Assembly (NCBI GenBank): GCA_003554945.1
Contig: PWHN01000114.1
Coordinates: 1-25,391, forward strand
Length of the DNA stretch: 25,391 bases
Source: a bacterium
GTDB lineage: Bacteria > T1Sed10-126
Direction: 5' to 3'
Shown here: one piece after another, positions 226 through 17,491 of the stretch
How the letters are laid out: each line of letters opens with the position of its first letter
How positions within the stretch are numbered: the stretch's first letter is position 1
Notes under the pieces: generated by a model
Told to the model about the DNA's origin: nothing
Seen by the model: only the letters and a program-made list of their open reading frames with translations
Database searches by the model: none
Made by a program: the position numbers and the translations under genes

Positions 226-395
226 GGGAGAAATTGCTCTAAATTTTACTATTGATGGTTTGGATTTACATCAGGAAAGAAAACATACAGGTGGGAATTG
301 TTTCTAATAATTAAGAATTATCATACGCAATTTTTTTGAACAACTTTACCTCCGAGGCTCAGATCAGATGGATGCAGATGGAGATGTAGATGTAC

Positions 396-435
396 AAAAA
401 AAAAAGCTGCCGGCAGCGATATAGCTGCCGGCAGC
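396..435 (-). terminator. Intrinsic terminator of the pilin gene
   Basis: Two copies of the 12-bp sequence GCTGCCGGCAGC (406-417 and 424-435) flank the 6-nt loop GATATA. On the minus strand they are followed by ten T residues (the A run at 396-405). The hairpin begins about 20 nt past the pilin stop codon. Each arm is itself a perfect palindrome, so the DNA can also extrude as two small hairpins. This is a textbook rho-independent terminator for a strongly expressed gene. Confidence 0.92.
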
Positions 436-456
436 ATGACTTTTATTAAATCAAGT

Positions 457-879: not shown

Positions 880-894
880 CTAAATCAACCTCCT

Positions 895-1075
895 TAGAGT
901 TGAAAAGTTAGAAAGTTTAAAAGTAAAACCGTAAAACCGAAAAATCAAACTTAGAGTTGAAAAGTTAAAAAGTTAGAAAGTTTAAAAGTAAAACCGTAAA
1001 ACCGAAAAATCAAACTTAGAGTTGAAAAGTTAAAAAGTTAGAAAGTTTAAAAGTAAAACCGTAAAACCATAAATC
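895..1075 (+). repeat. Three tandem copies of a 57/65-bp repeat made of octamers
   Basis: Copies begin at 895, 952 and 1017, and each starts with TAGAGTTGAAAAGTT. Each is built of 8-bp units: AGTTGAAA, (AGTTAAAA), AGTTAGAA, AGTTTAAA, AGTAAAAC, CGTAAAAC, CGAAAAAT. Copies two and three carry one extra octamer that copy one lacks, so the length difference is exactly one unit. The array lies in the presumed 5' untranslated leader of the pilin mRNA, directly upstream of its ribosome site. Confidence 0.85.
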
Positions 1076-1100
1076 GTAAACCTTTTCCCCCTCACCCAGG

Positions 1101-1194
1101 CCCTCTCCCTCCAGGGGAGAGGGATTTTTAGCAAGCTCACCCGAACCCTCTCCTTGGGCCGTTTTACGGTCCCTCCAGGGGAGAGGGATTTTTT
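1101..1194 (+). repeat. Two GAGAGGG hairpin repeats with T tracts
   Basis: Positions 1101-1123 form a 9-bp stem (CCCTCTCCC / GGGAGAGGG) with loop TCCAG, followed by ATTTTT. A second copy at 1147-1188 has its left arm separated from its right arm by about 17 extra bases and ends in a T6 run. Similar C-rich/G-rich hairpins recur near 1590-1660, 3540-3560, 5140-5165 and 21295-21345. On the plus strand they look terminator-like, but no plus-strand gene precedes them, so I treat them as a dispersed repeat. Confidence 0.55.
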
Positions 1195-1278
1195 AACGAC
1201 ACTTTTAAAAAATTGTGAAAGATCCTTTGGATCCCGGGGATTGGTTAATGGCCGGGATGAAAGCTCACTTATTTATTA

Positions 1279-1295
1279 AGCAATTTGTGTGCCAG
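1279..1295 (-). promoter_or_regulatory. Sigma54 (-24/-12) promoter driving the pilin gene
   Basis: The minus strand reads CTGGCACACAAATTGCT, which matches the sigma54 consensus TGGCAC-N5-TTGC. The invariant GG (1293-1292) and GC (1281-1280) have exactly 10 bases between them. Initiation is expected near 1268, about 390 nt upstream of the pilin ATG. No other gene lies between. Two sigma54 activators of the NtrC family are encoded in this window, and PilR-activated sigma54 promoters are the known mode of pilin control in Pseudomonas. Confidence 0.8.
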
Positions 1296-1307
1296 TTTTT
1301 GCTGTGA

Positions 1308-1325
1308 TTGTGAATTTTATCACAA
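1308..1325. promoter_or_regulatory. CRP/FNR-like palindromic operator next to the sigma54 promoter
   Basis: TTGTGAATTTTATCACAA is a palindrome of perfect 6-bp half-sites with a 6-bp spacer. It contains TGTGA-N6-TCACA, the consensus for CRP-family regulators. It lies 13-30 bp behind the -24 element, centred about 48 bp upstream of the predicted pilin start. It could bind a CRP/FNR-type protein or an NtrC-type activator. The symmetry is seen directly; the binding factor is inferred. Confidence 0.6.
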
Positions 1326-1439
1326 CTTCCGGTGTATTGGCAACTCATGGCTATGATCAGCAATTATTCGTTTTTTTAATTTGGGTTTCCAAAACGTCTG
1401 GATAGCTGAATTTGTCATTTTTTTGACGTTAAGGTGTTG

Positions 1440-1693
1440 AGGCTATGACGGAGGTGTTTTGCGATGGGGCGATAGGGCGCGTTGGCGAGAAGCGAAAGTG
1501 CGAAGAGCGAAAAATCGTGAAAAACAAAAAAACATGGATTGCGGATCGTAGTCCGCAATGACGAACGTTAGATCAAGTTCCCCCCTCACCTGTGTCCTCT
1601 TCCTCGAGGGGAGAGGAAAGTGTGGGGGCTGTGTTTTCTCCCGCGGGGGGAGAGGAAATTAGCCGAAGGAAGAGGTTTTTTTTGGGAAAGATT
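1440..1693. repeat. Mosaic of dispersed repeats between pilin promoter and toxin remnant
   Basis: No gene is visible. In order there are GCGATGGGGCGAT words (about 1461-1475), a GCGAGAA/GCGAAAG/GCGAAGA run (about 1484-1515) also present at 7446-7480, and a palindromic repeat at 1534-1567. The last is an inverted copy of 21258-21291 with a single mismatch in 34 bases. Two GAGAGGA-type hairpin repeats follow (about 1580-1660). The stretch 1195-1440 holds only the promoter elements listed separately. Confidence 0.6.
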
Positions 1694-2891: not shown

Positions 2892-3456
2892 TTAATGATA
2901 ATCGGTGGCTTCAACCTCATAAATATTCCCGTTTTCCTTATCCCATACACATAAATGCGATATTGTTTGTTAATTCTTAGCGAATACCAGAAATCGTAAC
3001 CGTTTAGCGGCCCCGGGGGGTTGTGGGATTGAACGTCATTGCCGGACTTGATCCGGCGAACCAGTGACTTACGGCCGTCATTGCCCGGCTTGACCGGGCA
3101 ATCCAGTGGCTTTGACGTTGACTTCAGACCATTAGAAAATCAACGCCGCTGGATTCCCGCTTCCGCGGGAATGATATTCAAGATCTCTTGGGCGTCGTTA
3201 TCGGGACATCATTTGTTCCAGGAATGGCAGTGAAGGCGCTAAACAATTACCAGAAATCATATCCCGTTAAAGGCTCCGGATTATAAATTTTTAAATCCAT
3301 CGGATTTATCCCCTGGTCAAGAGCGTCCATTATTTCTCTTGCCTTAGAGTGTAGTTCTTTCGGTAATACTTTTCGAGATTTTTTAGTATTCCTTCCCACA
3401 AAAATATCTCTTGTTCCAGTATCTCCAAAAGTTTTGATAGCATTCCTCTCACTCAA
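2892..3456 (-). pseudogene. higB: higB toxin gene split by a MITE and frameshifted
   Basis: HigB is a RelE-fold, ribosome-dependent mRNA endonuclease. The 5' part (3456-3247) encodes the family start (AIKTFGDTGTRDIFVGRN… PKELHSKARE) and breaks off after GYDFW. The 3' part resumes right after the inserted element with YSLRINKQYRI and, in another frame, VWDKENGNIYEVEATDYH, the classic HigB C-terminus. Removing 2996-3250 plus one 8-bp duplication rejoins W to YSLRIN exactly. One further net frameshift (probably an extra TA near 2944-2950) must then be undone to give a protein of about 99 residues, normal for HigB. The start is a TTG at 3454-3456 with GAGG 7 nt upstream, so the original start may also have been lost. 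The toxin is almost certainly inactive. Confidence 0.85.
2996..3250 (-). mobile_element. 255-bp IS66-like MITE inserted in higB
   Basis: The ends are 14-bp terminal inverted repeats: GTAACCGTTTAGCG (2996-3009) and, reverse-complemented at 3237-3250, GTAATTGTTTAGCG, with two mismatches. The element is flanked by the direct repeat CAGAAATC (2988-2995 and 3251-3258), an 8-bp target duplication. Ends beginning GTAA and 8-bp duplications are hallmarks of the IS66 family. No transposase is encoded, so the element is non-autonomous. The interior is almost wholly three palindromic repeats: GCCGGA/TCCGGC (about 3042-3058), ATTGCCCGG/CCGGGCAAT (about 3080-3102) and a perfect dRS3-type palindrome at 3153-3172. 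The clean excision that restores a HigB frame supports a true insertion. Confidence 0.85.
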
Positions 3457-3587: not shown

Positions 3588-4922
3588 TTACTCAAGGTTC
3601 AGGCGTTTGATGGTTTCAACGAGGGTGGTGCGGTTCATACCGAGCAGGTCGGCGGCGGCTGATTTATTGCCGCCGGTCTGCTCCAACGCCTGCTCGATAT
3701 AACGGCGTTTGAGCTGGAGAAGCACTGCATCCAGGTCGGGTTCCGGCGGAAAATCAAAACCTGTTTCAGCAAAATTATTTTTCAGGCCAGTAAGCCCGGC
3801 GGCTTGCAGGTTTTCCGGTTCAAGGATTGAACCCACGTCAAGGGCCTGGAGACGCCGAAGCACGTTTTTCAATTCGCGGACGTTACCGGGCCAGTCGTAA
3901 GCGGTCAGCCGCTCTCGGGCCGCCTCAGATATTTCAAATTCGAGACCCATCCGGTCTAAAAAGTAACGGACAAGGACGGGTATGTCGGCCGGTCGTTCGC
4001 GCAGGGGAGGAACGTGCAGTGCAAAAACATTCAGACGGTAGAAGAGGTCATTACGAAATTCGCCGCGCTCGACCATCGCCTCGAGGTCGCGGTTGGAGGC
4101 GGCCAGAACCCGGACGTCGACCGAAGTTGAGCTGTCACTGCCTACGGGGCGGACCTGCTTGTTTTCCAGGACACGCAGCAGCTTGGACTGGAGTTCAAGC
4201 GGCAGGTCACCAATTTCATCAAGCAAAATCGTGCCTCCGTCGGCGGTCTGAAAGAGTCCCCGCCGGTCGGAGCTGGCGCCGGTGAAAGCGCCCTCGGTGT
4301 GACCAAACAGTTCACTTTCCAGCAGCTCGCCGGGAATAGCGCCGCAGTTAACAGTGACCAGCGGTGTCTCGCCGCGGGGACTCTGGTAGTGAATAAAACG
4401 GGCAAAGACCTCCTTGCCGGTACCGCTCTCGCCTTCAATCAGGACGGGATCGGTTTTCGGGACAATACGGCGGGCGTAGTCGACCAGCTTCTGCATCTGC
4501 TCACTCTCGTAGACAAGACTGAAGCTGTCGGCGCGGGCGGCAAGATCGGTGCGTTTCTGTCTTTTAAACTGACGCTCAATTGCCTGGATAAATTCCTCCG
4601 TTTCAAACGGTTTCTGTAAAAAATCGTCGGCCTGGCGGCGGAGGGCTGTAACGGCGGTGTCGGTGTCGCCGTAGGCGGTAACCATGACAACGGGGACACG
4701 CTGGTCTTCTTTTCGCAGCTCGTCGAGAAAGTCAAGTCCGGAGACGCCGGGCATACGAATGTCGGCGACAACCAGGTCGGGGGCATCGCCGCGAAAGAGC
4801 TCCAGCCCCGTCTCGGCATCGGACGCGGTCAGTGGCCGGTAATCGTAAGTTTCAAGCGCCTGGCAGAGAAAATCTCGCATCATCTCGTCGTCTTCAACGA
4901 CAAGGACCGTCTGTTTGGGCAT
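3588..4922 (-). CDS. Sigma54-dependent NtrC-family response regulator (PilR-like)
   Basis: A 444-residue three-domain activator. The receiver domain (about 1-120) has phosphate-accepting Asp54, an acidic pair at 11-12 and Lys104. The AAA+ domain (about 140-375) has Walker A GESGTGKE (164-171), the sigma54-contacting GAFTGA loop (211-216) and Walker B ILLDEIGD (232-239). A Fis-type helix-turn-helix lies at the C-terminus (KSAAADLLGMNRTTLVETIKR, about 420-440). It should hydrolyse ATP to open sigma54-RNA polymerase promoters when phosphorylated. The ATG is backed by GGAGG. It follows the six-TM kinase gene (5490-7445), so the two form a PilS/PilR-like pair, although 567 bp of repeats now separate them. 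The recognition helix resembles FleQ/FlrC/ZraR-type proteins as much as PilR, so the target is inferred. The pilin promoter at 1279-1295 is the obvious candidate. Confidence 0.92.
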   Translation of the reverse strand: MPKQTVLVVEDDEMMRDFLCQALETYDYRPLTASDAETGLELFRGDAPDLVVADIRMPGVSGLDFLDELRKEDQRVPVVMVTAYGDTDTAVTALRRQADDFLQKPFETEEFIQAIERQFKRQKRTDLAARADSFSLVYESEQMQKLVDYARRIVPKTDPVLIEGESGTGKEVFARFIHYQSPRGETPLVTVNCGAIPGELLESELFGHTEGAFTGASSDRRGLFQTADGGTILLDEIGDLPLELQSKLLRVLENKQVRPVGSDSSTSVDVRVLAASNRDLEAMVERGEFRNDLFYRLNVFALHVPPLRERPADIPVLVRYFLDRMGLEFEISEAARERLTAYDWPGNVRELKNVLRRLQALDVGSILEPENLQAAGLTGLKNNFAETGFDFPPEPDLDAVLLQLKRRYIEQALEQTGGNKSAAADLLGMNRTTLVETIKRLNLE

Positions 4923-5489: not shown

Positions 5490-7445
5490 TCAATCTTGTG
5501 GTTGCAGGGGTAAGCGAATCGTGACCCGCGTCCCCTCTCCAGCCGGGGACGATAGTTCCAACTCCCCCTCCATTTCTTCGCTAATTATTCGATGAACTAT
5601 TGCCAGCCCCAGACCGAGGCCATCCTCTTTATCAGAGACAAACGGTTCAAAAGCCCGCTCGAGGAGCTGTTGATCAAATCCCTCACCGTCGTCCTCGACA
5701 ACAATCAGGGCTTCCTTACCACTGGAGTGAGCTTCCACCCGCACCGTGCCCTCGCTACCCGCAGCTTCGACGGCGTTGCGGAGTAGATTATCAAGAGCCG
5801 TGCGAAAACGGGAGCGGTTGGCAGTTACAAATCCATCGAGCTCGCTGAAATCTGTCTCCAGTCTGACGCCTTCGGGGGGACTTATGTCGGCAACCCAGGA
5901 CTCAATGAATTTTTCCAGGTCGATTTTTTCAACTTCAATTTCAGGTTTTCTCGCGTAAAGCAGAAAATTTTCGACCAGCTCGTCAACGCGATTGTAGCTA
6001 TTTCTTATTTTCTCGATCAATTCTTCCACGTCGGTTCCCCCCGGCAGCGCTTCAACCTTCTGTTGGAGCAGAGAAATAAAACCGGAGAGACTGCCAAGCG
6101 GATTTCTGATCTCATGGGCCATGCCGGCTGCAAACTCCCCCAGGGCAAGCAGGCGGCGGCGGCGTTCGGCCTGTTCCTGTAGTTTTTTCAGGGGGCGCAA
6201 GTCGGAGAAGACAACTATCCACTGGCCCGCCTGGCCGGGACCAAACTCGGCCTCGGTAATTGATAAATCTATCGGAATTGTCTCACAATCTATACGCTCA
6301 ACAACCAGTTCCGTCTCACAACGAACTTCAGCCAGATCAATCTCTTCCTCAACAAAATTAAAAACCTTTCCAAAGCGGCGGCCTACCAGGTCGGCCGCCG
6401 TCAGTCCAAGCAACTCTCCAGCGTGGCGATTCATCTCAACAACCACACCACGACTATCGGTGACAACAATACCCAGGGGAACCGCTTCAATCAAAGCTTC
6501 ACGTAGACGGTAGGCCCGTTCTTTCTCGTGCTGTATTCGCAGGTTGTCAACAAAATGCTCCAGGTATATGGCCAGCGCCTGGATCATCTCCCGCTCGGCC
6601 CGCTTAAGAATGCCCTGCAGCCGCGAACCCCAGAGTAACATTTCATAAGACTTCTCGGCCCAGGGTAATCTGATCCGATATATTTCCCGACGGCGATAAC
6701 TATCAAGCTCTTCCCGCCGGGCTTTTAAGAGTTGTTCTTTTTCTTCTTCTGACAGGTCAACTGCGGCAACGATTGATTCCTCCTTGTTCTCGATAAACAT
6801 TCCACCGCTGACTTCCGAAATTTTAACTACCGTCTGCAGCAGTTCCCTGGCAAATGGAAACAATTCGCCGGAGGTGTCGACAACTCGCCGCAGAGCCTGA
6901 AAAGTATCCATCTTCGAGAGCCGGTTGAGAAGCTGACGCTGTGTGTAGTTCTTTAGTTCGACCGTAAAACCGAGCAGCAGGGCAAGAATAAATAGCGGTA
7001 GAATTGAGGGCAAAATTGGCTGCAGCGCCTCAAGCTCAAAAGCCCAGGGCGGAGAGACACGAACAGTTTCAAGAAGAAAAGCTGCAAAAGCGGTGAGCAT
7101 TGTCCCGAGGAGACCGAAACTTAAAGCGGCAGAAAAAATGGGGATCAAGTAAAAAAGATGAACATAATCCAGCTCGGGAAAAAACAGGTGAACGAGATAG
7201 ACGCTAAATAAGTAAAACTCAAGGACCAGCACGTGATACTCAAAGCGATCGGTAAAGCGGCGGTAAAGCGGTTCAAGCACAAAAAATAAAAAGAGGAAGA
7301 AGGCAAGCCAGAACCAGCCTACCAGTTCATCAACAACCGGGACAAAATTAGATAACAAAACAAAAAGAACCAGGATGGCAAGAAAATAGCCGAAGAAGGA
7401 GAGCAGACCAGTTGCCCGGCTATCCGCCAGTTTGTCAGGTAACAT
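5490..7445 (-). CDS. Membrane-bound PAS sensor histidine kinase (PilS-like)
   Basis: A 651-residue kinase. Residues 13-165 form about six hydrophobic membrane segments with short loops, so there is no large extracytoplasmic sensor domain. A soluble linker (about 180-310, possibly GAF-like) and a PAS domain (about 311-420) follow. The HisKA domain has the phosphorylated His444 in GMAHEIRNPLGS. The ATPase domain has the N box DNLLRNAVEAAG (552-563), G1 EDDGEGF (584-590) and G2 GLGLGLA (609-615). Six membrane helices plus PAS match the architecture of PilS. It should phosphorylate Asp54 of the downstream NtrC-type regulator. The gene follows a PhnD-like lipoprotein gene by 99 bp, which may supply a ligand signal. 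The ATG at 7443-7445 has no Shine-Dalgarno sequence because repeat DNA abuts the start, so translation may be weak or coupled to the upstream gene. Confidence 0.9.
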   Translation of the reverse strand: MLPDKLADSRATGLLSFFGYFLAILVLFVLLSNFVPVVDELVGWFWLAFFLFLFFVLEPLYRRFTDRFEYHVLVLEFYLFSVYLVHLFFPELDYVHLFYLIPIFSAALSFGLLGTMLTAFAAFLLETVRVSPPWAFELEALQPILPSILPLFILALLLGFTVELKNYTQRQLLNRLSKMDTFQALRRVVDTSGELFPFARELLQTVVKISEVSGGMFIENKEESIVAAVDLSEEEKEQLLKARREELDSYRRREIYRIRLPWAEKSYEMLLWGSRLQGILKRAEREMIQALAIYLEHFVDNLRIQHEKERAYRLREALIEAVPLGIVVTDSRGVVVEMNRHAGELLGLTAADLVGRRFGKVFNFVEEEIDLAEVRCETELVVERIDCETIPIDLSITEAEFGPGQAGQWIVVFSDLRPLKKLQEQAERRRRLLALGEFAAGMAHEIRNPLGSLSGFISLLQQKVEALPGGTDVEELIEKIRNSYNRVDELVENFLLYARKPEIEVEKIDLEKFIESWVADISPPEGVRLETDFSELDGFVTANRSRFRTALDNLLRNAVEAAGSEGTVRVEAHSSGKEALIVVEDDGEGFDQQLLERAFEPFVSDKEDGLGLGLAIVHRIISEEMEGELELSSPAGEGTRVTIRLPLQPQD

Positions 7446-7544: not shown

Positions 7545-8471
7545 TTAGAGCTCTTCCCCGAATTCGGGCAGATAGTCCTCCAGCTCACGCACGACGTCAT
7601 AATCAGCGTCTTCAGCAGTCGTAAAGCCACCAATCCCGAGGCTGTCAAGAATTCGCTTGCCACGTGGTCCCTCATCATCCAGCCCGACCAGCAGACTGAT
7701 TATTTCATCAACCAGCTCCGGATACTGCTCGACAAATTCTGTTCTGAAGGCCCAGGGTTCGTTAGGAATCGGCGGTGTTTTTGCAACAACACGGGTATTT
7801 TCGATAACCCGCTCGGGATTGTCCATGTCCTGGCGGGCGTCGTCATAGACGGCTCCGCCGGCATAGTTTTCCAACCAGACGGCAGCAACAACATCGGTAT
7901 GACCGCCAAGGAAACTGGTTGGCCCCAAATCCGTGTCAGGATCGATCCCCTGGTCCTTGAAAAAAGCGTAGGGTAACAGGTAACCGGAAGCTGATTTTTC
8001 GTCGACGAACGCAAAACTGCGGCCGCGAAAATCTTCGGGTTCATGAATATCGGAGTCTACGTGTGCCAGAAGGAGAGATTTATAGCTTTCCTCACCGTAG
8101 CGAAGCGGCTTAACCGCGGGAGTTACCGCCTTCTCGCGCGCCGCTTCGACGTAAGACATGGGACCAAAAGTGGCGAAATTATATTCGCCCTCTTTAATTT
8201 TTTCGATAACTGAACCGTAATCACTATCAAAATTAATGTTGAACTCCAGCGGTAACTTCTCTTCCAGATACTCCTCCAGCGGACGCAGCTCAGCCCGCCT
8301 CTCGGAGGCGGCGATAGAGGGGACATGACCGTATTCAATTACCACGCGCTCCTCTTCGTCTATCCCCAGCTCTTCATAAACTTCGGGGGGTTCCTCCTCT
8401 GCCGGACAACCGGCGAGAAATAAAACAAGGATTGCGGTTAACAAAAGAGACAGCGTTGTTTTGTAATTCAT
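7545..8471 (-). CDS. PhnD-family periplasmic phosphate/phosphonate-type binding lipoprotein
   Basis: A 308-residue secreted solute-binding protein. The N-terminus is a lipoprotein signal with hydrophobic core 6-20 and lipobox LAGC (19-22), so Cys22 would be lipidated and the protein anchored outside the inner membrane. The body carries the PhnD-like fold signatures: FGPMSYVEA, FRGRSFAFVDEKSASGYLLP, and FLGGHTDVVAAV. These proteins bind small oxyanions or phosphonates for ABC import. No permease or ATPase gene is nearby. Instead the gene sits between pilC (37 bp upstream) and the six-TM histidine kinase (99 bp downstream). This suggests a sensory rather than a transport role, as known for other binding proteins that work with kinases. 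The start is supported by AAGGTG 5 nt before the ATG. The ligand cannot be deduced. Confidence 0.85.
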   Translation of the reverse strand: MNYKTTLSLLLTAILVLFLAGCPAEEEPPEVYEELGIDEEERVVIEYGHVPSIAASERRAELRPLEEYLEEKLPLEFNINFDSDYGSVIEKIKEGEYNFATFGPMSYVEAAREKAVTPAVKPLRYGEESYKSLLLAHVDSDIHEPEDFRGRSFAFVDEKSASGYLLPYAFFKDQGIDPDTDLGPTSFLGGHTDVVAAVWLENYAGGAVYDDARQDMDNPERVIENTRVVAKTPPIPNEPWAFRTEFVEQYPELVDEIISLLVGLDDEGPRGKRILDSLGIGGFTTAEDADYDVVRELEDYLPEFGEEL

Positions 8472-8508: not shown

Positions 8509-9726
8509 TTAAACAACCTGGATCAATTGGAACATGGGGAAGAACATGGCCATGACGATTGTCCCGACCATAATCCCCATAAAAAGAATAAGAATCGGTT
8601 CGAGCATTGAGCTTAGCCCCTCGACCATCTCGTCGACCTGCATCTCATAGGTATCGGCGACACGAGCCAGCATACCGTCCAGGTTACCGGTCTCTTCCCC
8701 AACCGATATCATGTTGGTGACCATGGGGGGAAAAACACCCGATTCGGCCAGCGGCTCACTGATAGTATCACCCTCGCTGATACTGTCGTAGACGTCATCC
8801 ATAACTTCAGAAACAACTCGATTGCCGATAGTGTCCTGGACAATCTCAATCGCCTGCAGTATAGGAACCCCACTCTGAATCAGCGTTGATAAGGTGCGAG
8901 CAAAGCGAGCCACGGCTACCTTCCGAAATAGCGTCCCGAAAATGGGCATGTTTATTTTCATTTTATCGATATTGTATTCTCCCTGGTCAGTTCCATAATA
9001 CCACTGTAAGCCATAGTATCCACCAATGGCGGCGATGATAACTACATACCAGCGATTTTGGAGAAAGTTGCTAAGACCAATTACAATTCGGGTGGGTAGT
9101 GGCAAATCGACCCCCATCTCAGAGAAAAGGTCGATAAAGGTAGGCAGAACAAATACCAGCAGAAAAGAGACAACCAGGATTGCTATGGCAAACATAATTG
9201 CTGGATACATAGTCGCCGATTTTATCTTCATCCGCAGTTCCTGGGCGGACTCGGCAAAATCAGCCAGCCGGTCCAGCACCTGTTCCATCACCCCACCAAC
9301 CTCCCCCGCCTTGACCATGTTGATGTAAAGCTCCTCGAAAACGTCGGGATGGGCCTTCAGAGCCTCGCTGAAACTGGCTCCCCCCTGGATATCCTGGCCG
9401 ATCTGGCTCAGTATTTGCTGAAAATCCTCGTTTTCAGTCTGTTCCTGCAGAACGTTGACCGCTCGCAGCAGCGGCAGTCCGGCGTCCAGCAGTGTCGCCA
9501 TCTGCCTGGTGAAGAGGGCAACCTCCTCACCACTTACCGGAGCACCACCAATCAAGGGTATATATTCCATAATGTCAAAGCCGCCGGTGGCGACCTCATT
9601 AACTTCAAAGGGGCGATAGCCCTGGTCTTTCAGGTTAGACACGGCAGCGCTTTCGCTGGCCGCGTCAATCCGACCTGAGACTTCCTGGCCACTGGAATCC
9701 ATCGCCTGGTATTCAAAAGTTGGCAT
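8509..9726 (-). CDS. pilC: Type IV pilus inner-membrane platform protein PilC
   Basis: A 405-residue GspF/PilC protein with two repeated T2SSF domains (about 70-193 and 273-395). Predicted membrane segments lie near 173-195, 226-243 and 376-398. Conserved features include FTRQMATLLDAGLPLLRA in repeat one and ARFARTLSTLIQSGVPIL in repeat two, each followed by the GE-x-G motif (GEVGG, GEETG). It forms the membrane platform that couples the cytoplasmic PilB/PilT motors to pilin assembly. The ATG at 9724-9726 follows GGAGG by 7 nt. It lies 44 bp after pilT and 37 bp before the PhnD-like gene, so it is in the pilus operon. The length is normal for the family. Confidence 0.95.
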   Translation of the reverse strand: MPTFEYQAMDSSGQEVSGRIDAASESAAVSNLKDQGYRPFEVNEVATGGFDIMEYIPLIGGAPVSGEEVALFTRQMATLLDAGLPLLRAVNVLQEQTENEDFQQILSQIGQDIQGGASFSEALKAHPDVFEELYINMVKAGEVGGVMEQVLDRLADFAESAQELRMKIKSATMYPAIMFAIAILVVSFLLVFVLPTFIDLFSEMGVDLPLPTRIVIGLSNFLQNRWYVVIIAAIGGYYGLQWYYGTDQGEYNIDKMKINMPIFGTLFRKVAVARFARTLSTLIQSGVPILQAIEIVQDTIGNRVVSEVMDDVYDSISEGDTISEPLAESGVFPPMVTNMISVGEETGNLDGMLARVADTYEMQVDEMVEGLSSMLEPILILFMGIMVGTIVMAMFFPMFQLIQVV

Positions 9727-9770
9727 CGTTAAACCTCCATGGAGTTGAAAACTTTTTTATTAAAGTGGAG

Positions 9771-10823
9771 TTACAGTTTTTTCTTCAGTTCCTCGGCATT
9801 CTGGGCGTTAGCCACAGCCTCGTCGTAGGAAATTTTACCGCGCTGGTAAAGCTGCTGCAAGTGCTGGTCAAGCGTCTGCATCCCCAGGTTACCGCCGGTC
9901 TGAATCGCCGAGGGAATGTTCTGTTCTTTTTTTTCACGAATCAAATTCTGAATTCCGGGCGTGGCAATCATTATTTCAAAAGCCGCCGTCCGACCGGTGC
10001 CGCTCTTTAAAGGCATCAACGTCTGAGAAATAACCGAGGTTAGAGTAATTGAAAGTTGCGAACGGACCTGGGCCTGCTCTTCCTGCGGGAATGTGTCAAT
10101 AATCCGGTTAACCGTCTGAGCGGCGCTATTGGTATGCAATGTTGCAAAAACCAGGTGGCCGGTCTCAGCGGCAGTTATTGCAGCACCTATAGTCTCCTGG
10201 TCGCGCATCTCACCGACCAGCATAACGTCAGGGTCCATACGCAGACCGGAACGGATGCCGTCGCTAAACGAGAGCACGTCAACACCCAGTTCACGCTGGG
10301 TTATAATCGACTGCTTGTGCGGATGTTTAAATTCTATCGGGTCCTCAATTGTAATTATATGTTTACCAAAGTTGGAGTTTATATAATCGATAAAAGCGGC
10401 CAGTGTTGTAGTTTTACCTGAACCGGTTGGCCCGGTGACAAGAACAATTCCCCTGGGGTAGGTACAAATTTCCTTCATTTTTGAAGGCAAACCCAGCTCT
10501 TCAAAAGAAAATATTTTGTTAGGGATAAGCCGCATAACCATGCCGGCGTATTTTTGCTGTTTAAAAATAGCAACCCGGAAACGGTTGCCGTCCTCCATTT
10601 CGTAACCGAAGTCACTCTGGCCGGCCTTAGCAAGTTTTTTTAGATGTTCGTCCGGCGCAACAGCCTTAACCATCTCCTCGGTCTCCTGGGGAGATAATTT
10701 TTCCGACCCTTCTACCTTTTTAATTCCTCCGTCAACCCGAAATACAGGTTTAGTTCCCACTGCGATGTGAATATCCGAAGCATCCTGATCGATACACATC
10801 TGCATGATGTCAAAAATATCCAT
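9771..10823 (-). CDS. pilT: Type IV pilus retraction ATPase PilT
   Basis: A 350-residue hexameric ATPase that depolymerises pili and drives twitching motility or DNA uptake. Walker A is GPTGSGKT (131-138), the Asp box IEDPIEF (159-165), Walker B VMLVGEMRD (200-208) and the His box HLVFATLHT (223-231). The N-terminal ASDIHI motif (15-20) and the absence of the long N-terminal region and zinc cysteines separate it from PilB. The retraction motif AIRNLIRE is present as GIQNLIRE. The length is typical. The start ATG has AGGAGG 9 nt upstream. The 130-bp gap to the preceding pilB gene contains a palindromic repeat, but the operon organisation is otherwise intact. Confidence 0.95.
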   Translation of the reverse strand: MDIFDIMQMCIDQDASDIHIAVGTKPVFRVDGGIKKVEGSEKLSPQETEEMVKAVAPDEHLKKLAKAGQSDFGYEMEDGNRFRVAIFKQQKYAGMVMRLIPNKIFSFEELGLPSKMKEICTYPRGIVLVTGPTGSGKTTTLAAFIDYINSNFGKHIITIEDPIEFKHPHKQSIITQRELGVDVLSFSDGIRSGLRMDPDVMLVGEMRDQETIGAAITAAETGHLVFATLHTNSAAQTVNRIIDTFPQEEQAQVRSQLSITLTSVISQTLMPLKSGTGRTAAFEIMIATPGIQNLIREKKEQNIPSAIQTGGNLGMQTLDQHLQQLYQRGKISYDEAVANAQNAEELKKKL

Positions 10824-10886
10824 TCAAACTTTCCTCCTCTATAGAATTATATGTAATTTTTAGACACCTTCGGAAATTCAACATGG

Positions 10887-10918
10887 ATTCCGGGTCTCCG
10901 CTTCGCTCCGCCCGGAAT
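10887..10918. repeat. Palindromic repeat between pilB and pilT
   Basis: ATTCCGGG (10887-10894) and CCCGGAAT (10911-10918) form an 8-bp stem around an inner partly complementary TCCGCTTCGCTCCG loop. A related repeat lies at 21382-21419. A second G/C-rich inverted motif follows to 10950. No T tract follows on the minus strand, so it may act as a processing or attenuation hairpin inside the operon. Confidence 0.6.
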
Positions 10919-10952
10919 GACGGAGCGAGATCTGCTCCCTGCGCGGAGCGCT

Positions 10953-12671
10953 TTATACCGCTGCTGCTGTGCCGTGGGCCTGAGTTACCCGGGCAACTTC
11001 CATCAACGTCGTGCTTCCCATTTTCACTTTTATAAAACCATCCTGGCGCAGCGTCCTCATTCCAGCATCTATGGCCACGTCACGCAGTTCGTTGGTTGTG
11101 CATCCTTCAAGTATCATGTCTTTCATTTTCTCGTTCATAACCATCATTTCAAAGAGAGCGGACCGCCCGGTATAGCCGGTCATATTGCAATTTTCACAGC
11201 CCTCCCCCTGGTAAAAAGTCGTTTCAGCCACATCTTCTTCAGGAAATCCGACCCGGTGTATATACTCCATCTCAGGCTCGTAAGCAACTTTACAATTTTC
11301 ACAAATTGTTCGCACCAGGCGCTGGGCCATAATAGCCTGTACGGCCGAACTAATAAGATAGGCGTTAACACCTAAATCAATAAGCCGATTCACAGCGCTG
11401 GGGGCGTCATTGGTGTGCAGAGTTGAAAACACCAGATGACCGGTGAGTGCCGCACGAATTGCCGTCTCGGCCGTCTCGTAGTCACGTATCTCACCGACAA
11501 GAATGACGTCCGGTGACTGACGAAGCAGTGAACTAAGCCCACGCGAAAAGTCCAACCCGATCTCATCATTAACCTGCATCTGGTTTATCCCTTCCAGTTG
11601 GTATTCAACCGGGTTCTCAATTGTAATTAGCTTGCGGTCCGGCGTGTTCAGCTCCTGCAGAGCCGAGTAGAGCGTTGTCGTCTTCCCCGACCCGGTCGGT
11701 CCGGTAACAAGTATAATGCCGTTGGGCTTTCGAATTAGTTTGTCAAACACTGCCTTGTTATCTGGCAAAAAGCCCAACGTTCCCAGCCCAATGTTCACCG
11801 ACTCTTTGTCAAGAATCCGAAGCACAACGCTCTCCCCGTGAATACCAGGCAGACAGCTAACCCGGAAATCAAGCTCCTTGCCCATCATTTTCAGCTTAAT
11901 ACGACCGTCCTGGGGAACCCGGCGCTCGGCAATATCCATTTCTGACATAATCTTTATCCTGGAAATTATTGCTCCCTGCAGCCGCTTGGGAGGCTCGTGA
12001 GCCTTGTGCAGGACACCATCAATTCGATAGCGAACAAGCAGTCTCCCCTCAAGCGGTTCAATGTGTATGTCACTGGTTCCGCGCTGAACAGCCTCCATAA
12101 TAATCATATTTACAAGTTTAATTACCGGCGCTTCCTCAGCCTGCTCTTCCAGTTCAGCGACATCTGCTTCATCATCCTCATCTTCAATGTGAACGAGGTC
12201 CTCCTCCCCCAGTTCAGCAAGCACATTGTCAATATCGTCCATTGAGGCGCCGTAGTATGTTGTAATTAACTCCTCTAATTCTTCCGGATCCGCCAGAGAA
12301 CACTCGATCGGCATTTCAAGAATAGCTTCCAGGTCATCCATCATACGCAAGTCGGGCGGCTCAGCGACGGCCAGTTTCAATGAGGTTGAGCTCTTTTCAT
12401 AAGGGAAGACGAAATACTGTTGCGCAGTCGCCGAGTCAATAATATCGTCAGCGTCCTCAATCGGCTCCGCGTCCGAGAGATCGACAAACTCCATACCATA
12501 ACTGAGAGCGTAAATTTCAAGCGCTTCCTTACGATCGATATCAAACTCCCGGGTAATTATGGCAAGAATTTCTTCCCCGGTTGTCTCCCCCCTGGTCAAC
12601 ACTTCATCCCCTTCCTCCGGTGTTAATTTTTTCTTTTCTACCAGCGACTCAATTAATCTGCCGGGTTCCAT
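10953..12671 (-). CDS. pilB: Type IV pilus assembly ATPase PilB, copy with degenerate N-domain
   Basis: A 572-residue GspE/PilB-type extension ATPase. The catalytic core has Walker A GPTGSGKT (324-331), Asp box ITIENPVEY (349-357), Walker B VILVGEIRD (389-397) and the His box HLVFSTLHT (412-420). A zinc tetracysteine is seen as C457-x2-C460 and C492-x2-C495. The N-terminal domain (1-140) is MshEN-like in placement but lacks the RLG-x-L … Q signature: it reads RLIESLVEKKKLTPEEGDEVL, with no terminal Gln. It probably does not bind c-di-GMP. A very acidic linker (about 150-180) precedes the core. The ATG follows AGGAGG by 7 nt, 37 bp after the second pilB gene. The protein is intact, so it is a functional paralog rather than a decayed duplicate. 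Confidence 0.92.
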   Translation of the reverse strand: MEPGRLIESLVEKKKLTPEEGDEVLTRGETTGEEILAIITREFDIDRKEALEIYALSYGMEFVDLSDAEPIEDADDIIDSATAQQYFVFPYEKSSTSLKLAVAEPPDLRMMDDLEAILEMPIECSLADPEELEELITTYYGASMDDIDNVLAELGEEDLVHIEDEDDEADVAELEEQAEEAPVIKLVNMIIMEAVQRGTSDIHIEPLEGRLLVRYRIDGVLHKAHEPPKRLQGAIISRIKIMSEMDIAERRVPQDGRIKLKMMGKELDFRVSCLPGIHGESVVLRILDKESVNIGLGTLGFLPDNKAVFDKLIRKPNGIILVTGPTGSGKTTTLYSALQELNTPDRKLITIENPVEYQLEGINQMQVNDEIGLDFSRGLSSLLRQSPDVILVGEIRDYETAETAIRAALTGHLVFSTLHTNDAPSAVNRLIDLGVNAYLISSAVQAIMAQRLVRTICENCKVAYEPEMEYIHRVGFPEEDVAETTFYQGEGCENCNMTGYTGRSALFEMMVMNEKMKDMILEGCTTNELRDVAIDAGMRTLRQDGFIKVKMGSTTLMEVARVTQAHGTAAAV

Positions 12672-12708
12672 AAACGGTCCTCCTCAGCTCTCAAAATAAC
12701 CGTCGTAT

Positions 12709-14469
12709 TCATAAATACTGGGCGAACTCTTCGTCAAAGTCCTCGGCCGACATATCCAGTGAAACTCCTGATTCCACAGGGGCAACACGTAAAACTTCTT
12801 CAACCGTCGTCTGCCCGTCAACCACTTTTTGCCAGCCGTCCTCACGCATCGGTATCATCCCCTCGTCGAACGCCTGTTGGAAAATTTGATCGGCAGAGGC
12901 TCGCTCGTTAACCAGGGCACTCACATCTTTTGACATTTCCAGCAGTTCAAATATACCGGTTCGACCGCGAAAACCTGTGTCACCACAATTTTCACAGCCA
13001 GTCCCACGGGTAAAAGTATGTTCGGACCACTCGGCCGGGTCCTTCCCTAACTGTCTCAGATTGTCCGGGTCAGGCTCATATTCCTCCCGGCACTCCTCAC
13101 AAATTAAACGAACCAGCCGCTGGGCTACAATAGCCTGGATAGTGGAAGTGAGCAGGAAAGGCTGAACCCCCATGTCAACCAGGCGAGTTATGGCACCCGC
13201 CGCCTCGTTAGTGTGAGTGGTCGACATTACAAGGTGTCCGGTCAGAGAGGCCTGAACGGCGATTTCCGCCGTTTCGACGTCACGAATTTCACCGACAAGA
13301 CAGATATCTGGATCCTGACGCAAAATAGAACGAAGACCGGAGGCAAAGGTAAAACCGACATCTTCGTTCACCTGACACTGGATTAGTCCGGGCAATTCAT
13401 ATTCAACCGGATCCTCCATTGTAATTATTTTATCCTCCGGATTGTTAATGTGATTTAAACCGGCGTAGAGAGTTGTAGTCTTTCCGCAACCAGTAGGCCC
13501 GGTAACAAGAACAATACCGTTAGGTCTCTCAATAATTTGCTGGAAACGTTCTTCTACCTCGGGAATAAAACCAAGCACATCCGTATCAAGATCAATATCA
13601 TCCTGGCTCAAAAGACGTAGAACAACACTCTCACCAAACACGGTCGGAATAGTACTCACTCGAAAGTCGAGCACCTGGCCGCTCAACTGCAATCGAATTC
13701 TACCGTCCTGAGGAAGCCTGGTCTCAGCGATATCCAGATCAGCCATTACCTTCACCCGGGAAATAACGGCTGCTTGCAGCTCTTTCGGCGGTGGGTTTAA
13801 CTCCTGCAGAACCCCGTCAATTCTGATGCGGACGACAAACCGATGCTCAAACGGCTCCAGGTGAATGTCGCTGGCCCGATTCTTAATCGCTTCCAGCAGG
13901 ATCATATTGACCAGTTTGATGACCGGCTTTTCATTTACCTGCTGCTCAATATCTTCCCCTATAGCAGGTCCCTGGTCGGAGACAATATCCACGTCATCTT
14001 CGGTCATATCCTCTATTACGCCGGAAATTTGATCGGCGGAACCATAAATGTCGCCCATCGCATTTTTAATCTCTTCCTCGGCCGCAATAACCGGTTCAAC
14101 AGCCTTGCCAACCATCATTTTAATTTCATCCATGGCGGCGACGTTCAGCGGATCAGCCACAGCTATTACAACCTGGTCTTCAAGCTCTTCAATCGGAATA
14201 AGACGCCGTTCACGGGCCACGTCTTCAGGAATGATTTCAGCCAGTTCCTCGGAGAGATTGTAATCGGAGAGACTTACATACGGTATGTTCAACTGGGTCG
14301 AAAGCGCAGCCGCAAGCTCAATACCTTGGATATATCCCAGGCTTTTTAATATTTTACCCAGGCGCTCACCGGATTCTTCCTGTTCTTCAAGGGCCTCATT
14401 GAGCTGCTCTTCGGTAATTAAACCGGCGGAGACAAGTATTTCACCAAGTTTTTTCTTCTGAACGGGCAA
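12709..14469 (-). CDS. pilB: Type IV pilus assembly ATPase PilB, copy with canonical c-di-GMP-type N-domain
   Basis: A 586-residue extension ATPase and the first gene of the pilus operon. Its N-terminus carries two MshEN-type 24-residue motifs: KLGEILVSAGLITEEQLNEA…Q (7-30) and RLGKILKSLGYIQGIELAAA…Q (36-59). These fit the c-di-GMP-binding consensus RLGxxLxxxGxIxxxxLxxxLxxQ. The core has Walker A GPTGCGKT (324-331, with an unusual Cys), Asp box ITMEDPVEY (349-357), Walker B ICLVGEIRD (389-397) and His box HLVMSTTHT (412-420). The zinc cysteines are C457, C460, C492 and C495. Translation starts at TTG 14467-14469, supported by GGAGG 9 nt upstream. Transcription likely comes from the promoter 14576-14604, giving a leader of about 100 nt. 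It is roughly collinear with the adjacent PilB over the whole length. Confidence 0.93.
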   Translation of the reverse strand: MPVQKKKLGEILVSAGLITEEQLNEALEEQEESGERLGKILKSLGYIQGIELAAALSTQLNIPYVSLSDYNLSEELAEIIPEDVARERRLIPIEELEDQVVIAVADPLNVAAMDEIKMMVGKAVEPVIAAEEEIKNAMGDIYGSADQISGVIEDMTEDDVDIVSDQGPAIGEDIEQQVNEKPVIKLVNMILLEAIKNRASDIHLEPFEHRFVVRIRIDGVLQELNPPPKELQAAVISRVKVMADLDIAETRLPQDGRIRLQLSGQVLDFRVSTIPTVFGESVVLRLLSQDDIDLDTDVLGFIPEVEERFQQIIERPNGIVLVTGPTGCGKTTTLYAGLNHINNPEDKIITMEDPVEYELPGLIQCQVNEDVGFTFASGLRSILRQDPDICLVGEIRDVETAEIAVQASLTGHLVMSTTHTNEAAGAITRLVDMGVQPFLLTSTIQAIVAQRLVRLICEECREEYEPDPDNLRQLGKDPAEWSEHTFTRGTGCENCGDTGFRGRTGIFELLEMSKDVSALVNERASADQIFQQAFDEGMIPMREDGWQKVVDGQTTVEEVLRVAPVESGVSLDMSAEDFDEEFAQYL

Positions 14470-16132: not shown

Positions 16133-17491
16133 CTACACCTCAATTCCATAATCATCTCTTTTTTTACGCAGAGTTTTGCGGGTAACCCCCAGTTCCTTTG
16201 CTGCCCGGGTTATGTTACCATCATATTTTTGCAGAGTAGCTTTGACAAGCTGTTCTTCAGCTTCCGCCAGTGACATCCCCGCCTCAAAAACTAATTGTTC
16301 ATTTCCGGAGCGACGGCCGGGTCCTTTTAGCAGATCAAAATCTTCAGGCCTCAACACCGCGTCTTCTGCAACCACGGCGGCACTTTCCAGAGCATTTCGC
16401 AGCTCGCGAACATTCCCCGGCCAATCGTGAGCCTCCAGTAGTTCCCTGGCTTCAGGGCTTATGTCTTTTATTTCTTTCTCCACCTTTTTATTTATCTCCT
16501 GGAGAAAATAATCACAAAAAAGAGCAATGTCCTCTTTCCTCTCCCGCAGGGGCGGTAATTTTATTTCAAATACATTAATCCGATAGTATAGATCCCGGCG
16601 AAAACGATCCTCTTCGACCATCTTTTCAATATTTGAACTGGTGGCACTAATCAGACGAAAATCAAGCTGTCGGGCCTCCTCGCCACCAACTGGCATAACC
16701 TGCTGGTCCTGAAGCACACGAAGCATTTTTGCTTGCATCGGGAAAGGCATAGCACCTATTTCATCAAGAAACAGCGTGCCTCCATCGGCCAGCTCAATTT
16801 TTCCCTTTTTGTCCTCCTCGGCGCCGGTAAACGCCCCCTTCTTGTGGCCAAATAACTCGCTTTCCAGCAAATCAGACGGAATAGCAGCACAATTTACGGC
16901 CACAAATGGCTGGTCACTACGGCTGCTGTTGTAATGAATACTGTTCGCTACTACTTCCTTTCCCGTCCCGCTCTCCCCCTGAATTAATACCGCTGTATCC
17001 GTGTTAACCACCTTTTCAATTCGTTGCTTGACCTCCTCCATCTGCTTGCTGTTACCAATTAAAGGTGAGTGCTGAAAATCACCTTCAAGAAAAGACCGAA
17101 GTTGTTTAACCTCTTCCCGCAGTTCACGATTTTCCAGCCCTTTCTCGATTGTCACCTCAACCTCTTCAAGGTCAAACGGTTTGGCTATGTAATCGTGTGC
17201 TCCGAGTTTGACAGCTCGTACCGCCGTTTCAACGTCGTCATAAGCAGTAACCATTATTACAACAATTCGTGGATACTTTTCTCGAACCTCTTCAAGTATT
17301 TCCATACCACCTTTCCCGGGAAGCATTATATCAAGTAGCAGCACGTCCGGAGTCGACTCTTCAATTGCTTTGATCCCGGACTCGCCGTCCTGAAACGAAG
17401 TCACGTCGTAACTCTCTTTTAAGGCTTCTTCAAACAGTTGACATATGCTCGGATCGTCATCAATCACATAGACCTTAACCAAATCAGACAC
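16133..17491 (-). CDS. Sigma54-dependent NtrC-family response regulator (ahcY operon)
   Basis: A 452-residue activator. The receiver has DDD at 11-13, phospho-acceptor Asp54 and Lys104. The AAA+ domain has Walker A GESGTGKE (172-179), the GAFTGA loop (219-224) and Walker B LFLDEIG (240-246). The C-terminal Fis-type helix-turn-helix reads NITRAAKELGVTRKTLRKK, close to the NtrC/AtoC type and unlike the recognition helix of the other activator at 3588-4922. It follows its kinase by 9 nt and precedes the hydantoinase by 5 nt, so it is co-translated with both. Its targets should be sigma54 promoters. None was found inside its own operon, while one sits at the pilin gene. Confidence 0.93.
   Translation of the reverse strand: MSDLVKVYVIDDDPSICQLFEEALKESYDVTSFQDGESGIKAIEESTPDVLLLDIMLPGKGGMEILEEVREKYPRIVVIMVTAYDDVETAVRAVKLGAHDYIAKPFDLEEVEVTIEKGLENRELREEVKQLRSFLEGDFQHSPLIGNSKQMEEVKQRIEKVVNTDTAVLIQGESGTGKEVVANSIHYNSSRSDQPFVAVNCAAIPSDLLESELFGHKKGAFTGAEEDKKGKIELADGGTLFLDEIGAMPFPMQAKMLRVLQDQQVMPVGGEEARQLDFRLISATSSNIEKMVEEDRFRRDLYYRINVFEIKLPPLRERKEDIALFCDYFLQEINKKVEKEIKDISPEARELLEAHDWPGNVRELRNALESAAVVAEDAVLRPEDFDLLKGPGRRSGNEQLVFEAGMSLAEAEEQLVKATLQKYDGNITRAAKELGVTRKTLRKKRDDYGIEV

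Follow-up and report, generated by a model that had tools for sequence, protein, structure and literature searches.

The pilin unit and its predicted sigma54 promoter

The window, by which we mean the whole stretch of 25,391 nucleotides that was analysed, is contig C11 of a 2.2 Mb genome (121 contigs, 93.5% complete), and it carries on its minus strand a gene for a type IV pilin with a prepilin N-methylation motif (PF07963; positions 457-879), preceded by a ribosome-binding site, AAGGAGG, that was rated good. A strong intrinsic terminator lies directly after this gene (388-456, minus strand; 12-bp GC-rich stem, T10, fold -31.2 kcal/mol, z -7.7), so that the pilin forms a single-gene unit. At higher coordinates, and also on the minus strand, are found the genes for a PilR-like response regulator (3588-4922; receiver, sigma54 AAA+ and Fis HTH domains) and a PilS-like kinase (5490-7445; about six hydrophobic helices by hydropathy, and PAS, HisKA and HATPase domains by Pfam), both located between the pilin and pilC, followed by pilC, pilT and two ATPase genes of the pilB/gspE type (8509-14469). 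NCBIfam identified pilC and pilT, and the ATPase genes were assigned from translations and synteny. Between pilC and the PilS-like gene lies a gene for a PhnD-like phosphonate-binding protein (7545-8471), which may be a sensor input to the PilS-like kinase. A second sigma54 activator, of the NtrC family, is encoded at 16133-17491 (minus strand); the window thus holds the two sigma54 activators that the initial annotation had described. No Rfam families or tRNAs were found in the window.

An exact sigma54 -24/-12 box, TGGCACACAAATTGC (TGGCAC-N5-TTGC), is read on the minus strand from 1294 to 1280, facing the pilin and with its GG and GC 10 bp apart, just as had been claimed; it scores 12/13 against the extended consensus. 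Setting the GG at -25/-24 places the predicted +1 at 1268, 389 nt from the pilin ATG (879), a distance that the initial annotation had put at 390 bp, and its positions and distances hold throughout. Base composition gives such a box a chance of ~4e-4 within these 680 bp of intergenic DNA, a post hoc figure. In the whole genome the exact motif occurs three times, against four in the reversed control, and this lack of enrichment counts against the explanation we favour below; the two remaining copies are intragenic, which leaves the pilin copy as the only exact box in promoter position. RpoN, whose absence had been named as an argument against such a promoter, is encoded once in the genome (PF04552, E 1.8e-57). 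With RpoN present, a PilS/PilR-like pair nearby and a box that faces the pilin unit, the reading as a sigma54 promoter holds.

The 389-nt leader (880-1268, minus strand) consists mostly of repeats, with a 65-bp repeat in about three copies at 898-1080 and REP-like GC hairpin elements at 1096-1189, and no minus-strand terminator-like site was found within it. The long distance between promoter and gene is thus probably a product of repeat expansion; the leader is long all the same, and its length counts against the favoured explanation. Upstream of the promoter, RNA folding gives a terminator-like hairpin at 1538-1559 (minus strand). The intergenic DNA of the window is dense with short repeat families, at 896-1190, 1578-1660, 2268-2330 and 3034-3170, comprising the 65-mer array, CCCTCTCC...GGGGAGAGGG hairpins, CGGTGTT repeats and CGTCATTGC elements, and sequence resembling them is seen on other contigs (e.g. 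L054:1900-2400). On contig C104 (L055:202-2346), a 714-residue protein has a C-terminal part that resembles the window pilin from which the N-terminal helix has been removed (45% across residues 26-134 of the pilin). It looks like a fusion of the globular domain of a pilin to a different protein.

A CRP-type palindrome and its family of sites

Directly behind the sigma54 box, at 1308-1325, lies an exact CRP-type palindrome, TTGTGA-N6-TCACAA (TTGTGAATTTTATCACAA), centred at -48.5, which confirms a further claim of the initial annotation and also matches TGTGA-N6-TCACA exactly. Its chance in the 680 bp intergenic stretch, again post hoc and from base composition, is ~7e-5, and the exact 18-mer pattern occurs once in the 2.2 Mb genome.

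A genome search for other such sites had been proposed. No enrichment was seen for TTGTGA-N6-TCACAA with up to two mismatches (78 copies vs 69 in the control) or for TGTGA-N6-TCACA with up to one (39 vs 38), and a second exact TGTGA-N6-TCACA core (C78:4896) was set aside, as it lies within a gene. Since loose or GC-centred palindromes are not enriched and are mostly intragenic, the signal is confined to the AT-centred form, GTGA-W6-TCAC, with seven copies against one in the control; a simple gene caller based on codons places all seven between genes and most of the GC-centred relatives within them. Markov models of intergenic and coding sequence give 0.15-0.28 expected intergenic copies and 1.3 coding ones, so that seven intergenic copies have a P of ~1e-8 to 1e-10, a value that is somewhat optimistic, and strong rather than exact, because the pattern was chosen after the single-mismatch list had been viewed.

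Apart from the pilin site, members of the family are found before the gene of a 1009-residue Ig-like repeat protein in a pilM/pilO operon (C47), before an adenosine deaminase (C69), a FecR-domain protein (C95), a TraF-like outer membrane protein (C99) and a sugar transferase (C109), and between fructose-1,6-bisphosphatase and an HTH gene (C95); a near-match with one mismatch is present on C67. As C47 carries the pilM/pilO operon, two family sites lie at type IV pilus loci. Directly upstream of the pilM operon on C47 a third sigma54 response regulator is encoded (L115:932-2296), itself preceded by a kinase fragment.

In four of the seven non-pilin sites (the six exact ones and the C67 near-match), a TAnnnT box begins exactly 24 bases past the 16-mer, and the chance that any offset would match four of seven is P = 0.0018. 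Class II CRP sites follow a -41.5 rule, and the 24-base offset, by which the site would be centred at about -43 in a sigma70-like promoter, is close to this geometry. By eye, the C47 and C95 sites have TTGnnA-N17 boxes that would put their centre near -49. No sigma54 box was seen beside the other family sites scanned, nor did an approximate sigma54 matrix find one upstream of pilM on C47. A site matrix trained on six sites, with those of the pilin and C47 excluded, gives the pilin site the highest score in the window (19.6, against 13.8 for the runner-up) and likewise puts the C47 site at the top of a 12 kb stretch; the centres of these two sites are slightly unlike those of the others, which counts against the favoured explanation.

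The phylum is represented in our set by this genome and one other, G001 (MAG CSSed10_354m), which going by its name is probably of soda-lake sediment origin (compare PMC6146748). It shares the C47 gene order (Ig-like repeat protein, pilM/pilO), and its pilin, encoded directly after pilC, is 54% identical to the window pilin. The expectation that both motifs would be conserved in relatives was not borne out, as neither palindrome nor sigma54 box is present upstream of the G001 pilin, and the approximate sigma54 matrix also finds no box there; conservation of the sites would support their assignment rather than define it. GTGA-W6-TCAC has no copies in G001 and none in its control, so that the absence is consistent but weak. 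G001 encodes cNMP proteins, none with an HTH, and a full-length PilS relative was not found in it. Lacking both the sites and an HTH-bearing CRP, G001 fits a pairing of site and regulator and yields no conservation. Upstream of its pilin (L056:8033-8048) there is a shorter inverted repeat, CGTTAAATTATTAACA, with TATGCT at the 24-base offset; this geometry, the same as in four CRP-type sites of the window's own genome, may be due to chance. Outside the phylum, similarity to the pilin is mainly at the N-terminus, which makes a promoter comparison meaningless there, and a GTDB scan with the window pilin gave no matches. Within the genome, a pilin paralog on C94 has neither sigma54 box nor palindrome upstream.

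A candidate binding protein

The genome contains seven cNMP-domain matches, two of which fall in proteins that also have a Crp-type HTH; for the C102 protein and the remaining cNMP proteins this was judged from the translations. The search for a CRP/FNR gene that had been suggested yielded a CRP-like protein on C69 (19460-20140), with cNMP and HTH_Crp domains, which is 26% identical to E. coli CRP and whose best solved relatives are annotated as Crp/Fnr-family regulators. Its recognition helix, RETITR (Arg-Glu-Thr-x-x-Arg), compares with RETVGR in E. coli CRP; Arg180, Glu181 and Arg185 are kept, and the Glu and Arg-Ser of the phosphate cassette are conserved. Rodionov et al. associated Arg180 with TTGTGA-N6-TCACAA sites and its loss (Ser, Pro) with a TTGAC-type site (PMC545781). 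The second Crp/Fnr protein (C98), with Pro in place of Arg180, was rejected as the binder, and so was Rex, as no Rex N-terminal domain (PF06971) was found in the 93.5%-complete genome.

The CRP-like gene is clustered with a CHASE2-guanylate/adenylate cyclase and further cNMP proteins, and the C69 region as a whole (L059:872-6141; CHASE2-cyclase, cNMP-binding proteins, CRP-like regulator) suggests a rich cyclic-nucleotide system. No palindrome is present at the cyclase/CRP locus in the stretch read, which counts against the favoured explanation. Judged by its recognition helix, the C69 protein is the best candidate binder of the palindrome family. The proposal that the palindrome serves a CRP/FNR-type co-regulator instead of an NtrC-type enhancer is strengthened, since the site recurs before genes with sigma70-like boxes, and it is backed further by a CRP-like protein with a matching helix and by the failure to detect Rex.

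Proposed regulation of the pilin promoter

Taking these elements together, we favour, with modest confidence, the explanation that the pilin is a stand-alone sigma54 unit under PilS/PilR-like activation and that the palindrome is the site of the CRP-like protein, one of at least seven promoter-located sites in the genome. The analysis demonstrates the sequence elements, the genes of the regulators and the family of sites together with its position at promoters; the binding, its ligand, the start site and the sign of regulation are what we infer. The sigma54 promoter, with its +1 near 1268, would drive the pilin alone, and the neighbouring PilS/PilR-like pair would activate it, probably through an enhancer located upstream, for instance the GTCA-N6-TGAC palindrome at 1414-1427 (the only window copy, 0.19 expected), which by its position, centred at -152.5, is a candidate site for the PilR-like activator. 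A dimer of the CRP-like protein on the -48.5 palindrome would lie directly upstream of the sigma54 polymerase, where it could touch the alpha-CTD and would most likely keep the activator from the closed complex. At the sigma54 promoters dctA and glnAp2, CRP-cAMP is reported to lower expression through contact with the promoter-bound polymerase, which shuts out the activator (PMC3900584), and a site right behind the closed complex fits inhibition of this type better than it fits the usual enhancer distance. High levels of the CRP ligand, which is probably cAMP made by the neighbouring CHASE2 cyclase, would thus damp the pilin; at other targets, with the site directly against a -35-like position, the CRP-like protein may activate. 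The redox link to the pilin that was first suggested is not favoured, a cyclase-linked signal being the more likely putative effector.

A CRP-type site also precedes six or more further genes, which points to a link between pilus control and a signal of the cyclic-nucleotide type. It is possible, and we put it forward only tentatively, that these sites make up a small AT-centred CRP-type regulon acting on both types of promoter, with sigma70 promoters activated at a fixed distance and the sigma54 pilin promoter gated from -48.

The main rival, which we consider unlikely, is a sigma70-like promoter that overlaps the palindrome, TTGCCA-N18-TAAAAT (1314-1343, minus strand), from which the pilin would be transcribed exclusively or in addition, the palindrome then serving simply as the operator of a repressor, and the sigma54 box playing a secondary part. 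It matches at 10 of 12 positions and a TG precedes its -10, giving an extended -10 inside the palindrome; HcpR sites that overlap a -10 box are predicted to be repressive (PMC545781), and class II pilE of Neisseria meningitidis uses a sigma70 promoter, with sigmaN also considered (PMC6755734). However, 940 bp contain three matches of this quality, this one included, against an expected 1.0, and since the other family palindromes lie upstream of a -10-like box, the AT-rich middle of a palindrome can look like a -10; this rival would also offer no account of the PilSR neighbours or of the exact sigma54 box.

Less probable still is that the palindrome is an unusually near site for the PilR-like or another sigma54 activator. 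The palindrome does fit the NifA-like frame TGT-N10-ACA, and a NifA-like element (TGT-N11-AGA) together with GTCT has been termed a PilR hallmark (PMC6058289); against this, most other family members have a sigma70-like -10 downstream and those scanned lack a sigma54 box, a centre at -48.5 is very near for an enhancer, and the -152.5 palindrome is available separately. Rex sites are similar to TTGTGA-N6-TCACAA, and the family could belong to a Rex- or HcpR-like redox or NO regulator that ties redox state to the pilin. We regard this as improbable, even though the palindrome is the exact published HcpR consensus (PMC545781), since no Rex N-terminal domain was found in the genome, the Arg180-type candidate adjoins a nucleotide cyclase and keeps the cNMP-cassette residues, and no hcp or redox genes are among the targets examined. 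That one or both motifs are chance resemblances picked post hoc, with the pilin promoter elsewhere, e.g. in the repeat-rich leader, accords with the unenriched sigma54 box and with the lack of conservation in G001 and is very improbable given seven palindrome-type copies, all intergenic, the -10-like box at a fixed offset, and two rare exact elements side by side next to a PilSR-type cluster.

The favoured explanation has counterparts in known systems. Control of pilA by PilS-PilR-RpoN in Pseudomonas aeruginosa, Geobacter and Myxococcus likewise involves a pilin with a -24/-12 box, and the predicted six-helix PilS-like kinase and NtrC-type PilR-like regulator beside pilB/pilT/pilC recall it; here, in contrast, a CRP-type palindrome abuts the promoter, the 389-nt leader is filled with repeats and the host belongs to a deep uncultured phylum. 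In the inhibition of dctA, glnAp2 and Pu by CRP-cAMP, a CRP-type site or contact is likewise found just upstream of the sigma54 polymerase and a block of the activator is predicted, as it is here, but the gene targeted here encodes a pilin, its palindrome at -48.5 is perfect and the effect is a putative one. The global regulons of CRP/Vfr or GlxR/Rv3676 similarly have TGTGA-N6-TCACA type sites in several promoters, pilus and envelope genes among their targets and Crp/Fnr-family regulators, such as the best solved relatives of our protein; they differ from the present family in its AT-only centre, the few sites found and the low identity of its regulator to E. coli CRP. The HcpR regulon (Desulfovibrio, Clostridium) shares the published consensus and the Arg180 rule, whereas here sulfate-reduction genes, like hcp, are missing among the targets examined and the regulator has a cyclase neighbourhood.

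Each part of the arrangement is already known; the literature searched gave no instance of their combination, or of its regulon in this lineage. For a phylum known here from two genomes, the analysis offers a concrete regulon that can be tested, with a named regulator, a candidate ligand, a site and targets. If the favoured explanation is true, the locus would show, in a natural setting, a CRP-type protein acting directly on the sigma54 promoter of a pilin, with a cyclic-nucleotide signal joined to pilus production in one promoter and not via a cascade. Under the more tentative regulon proposal, that signal would set pilus production directly at the pilin promoter.
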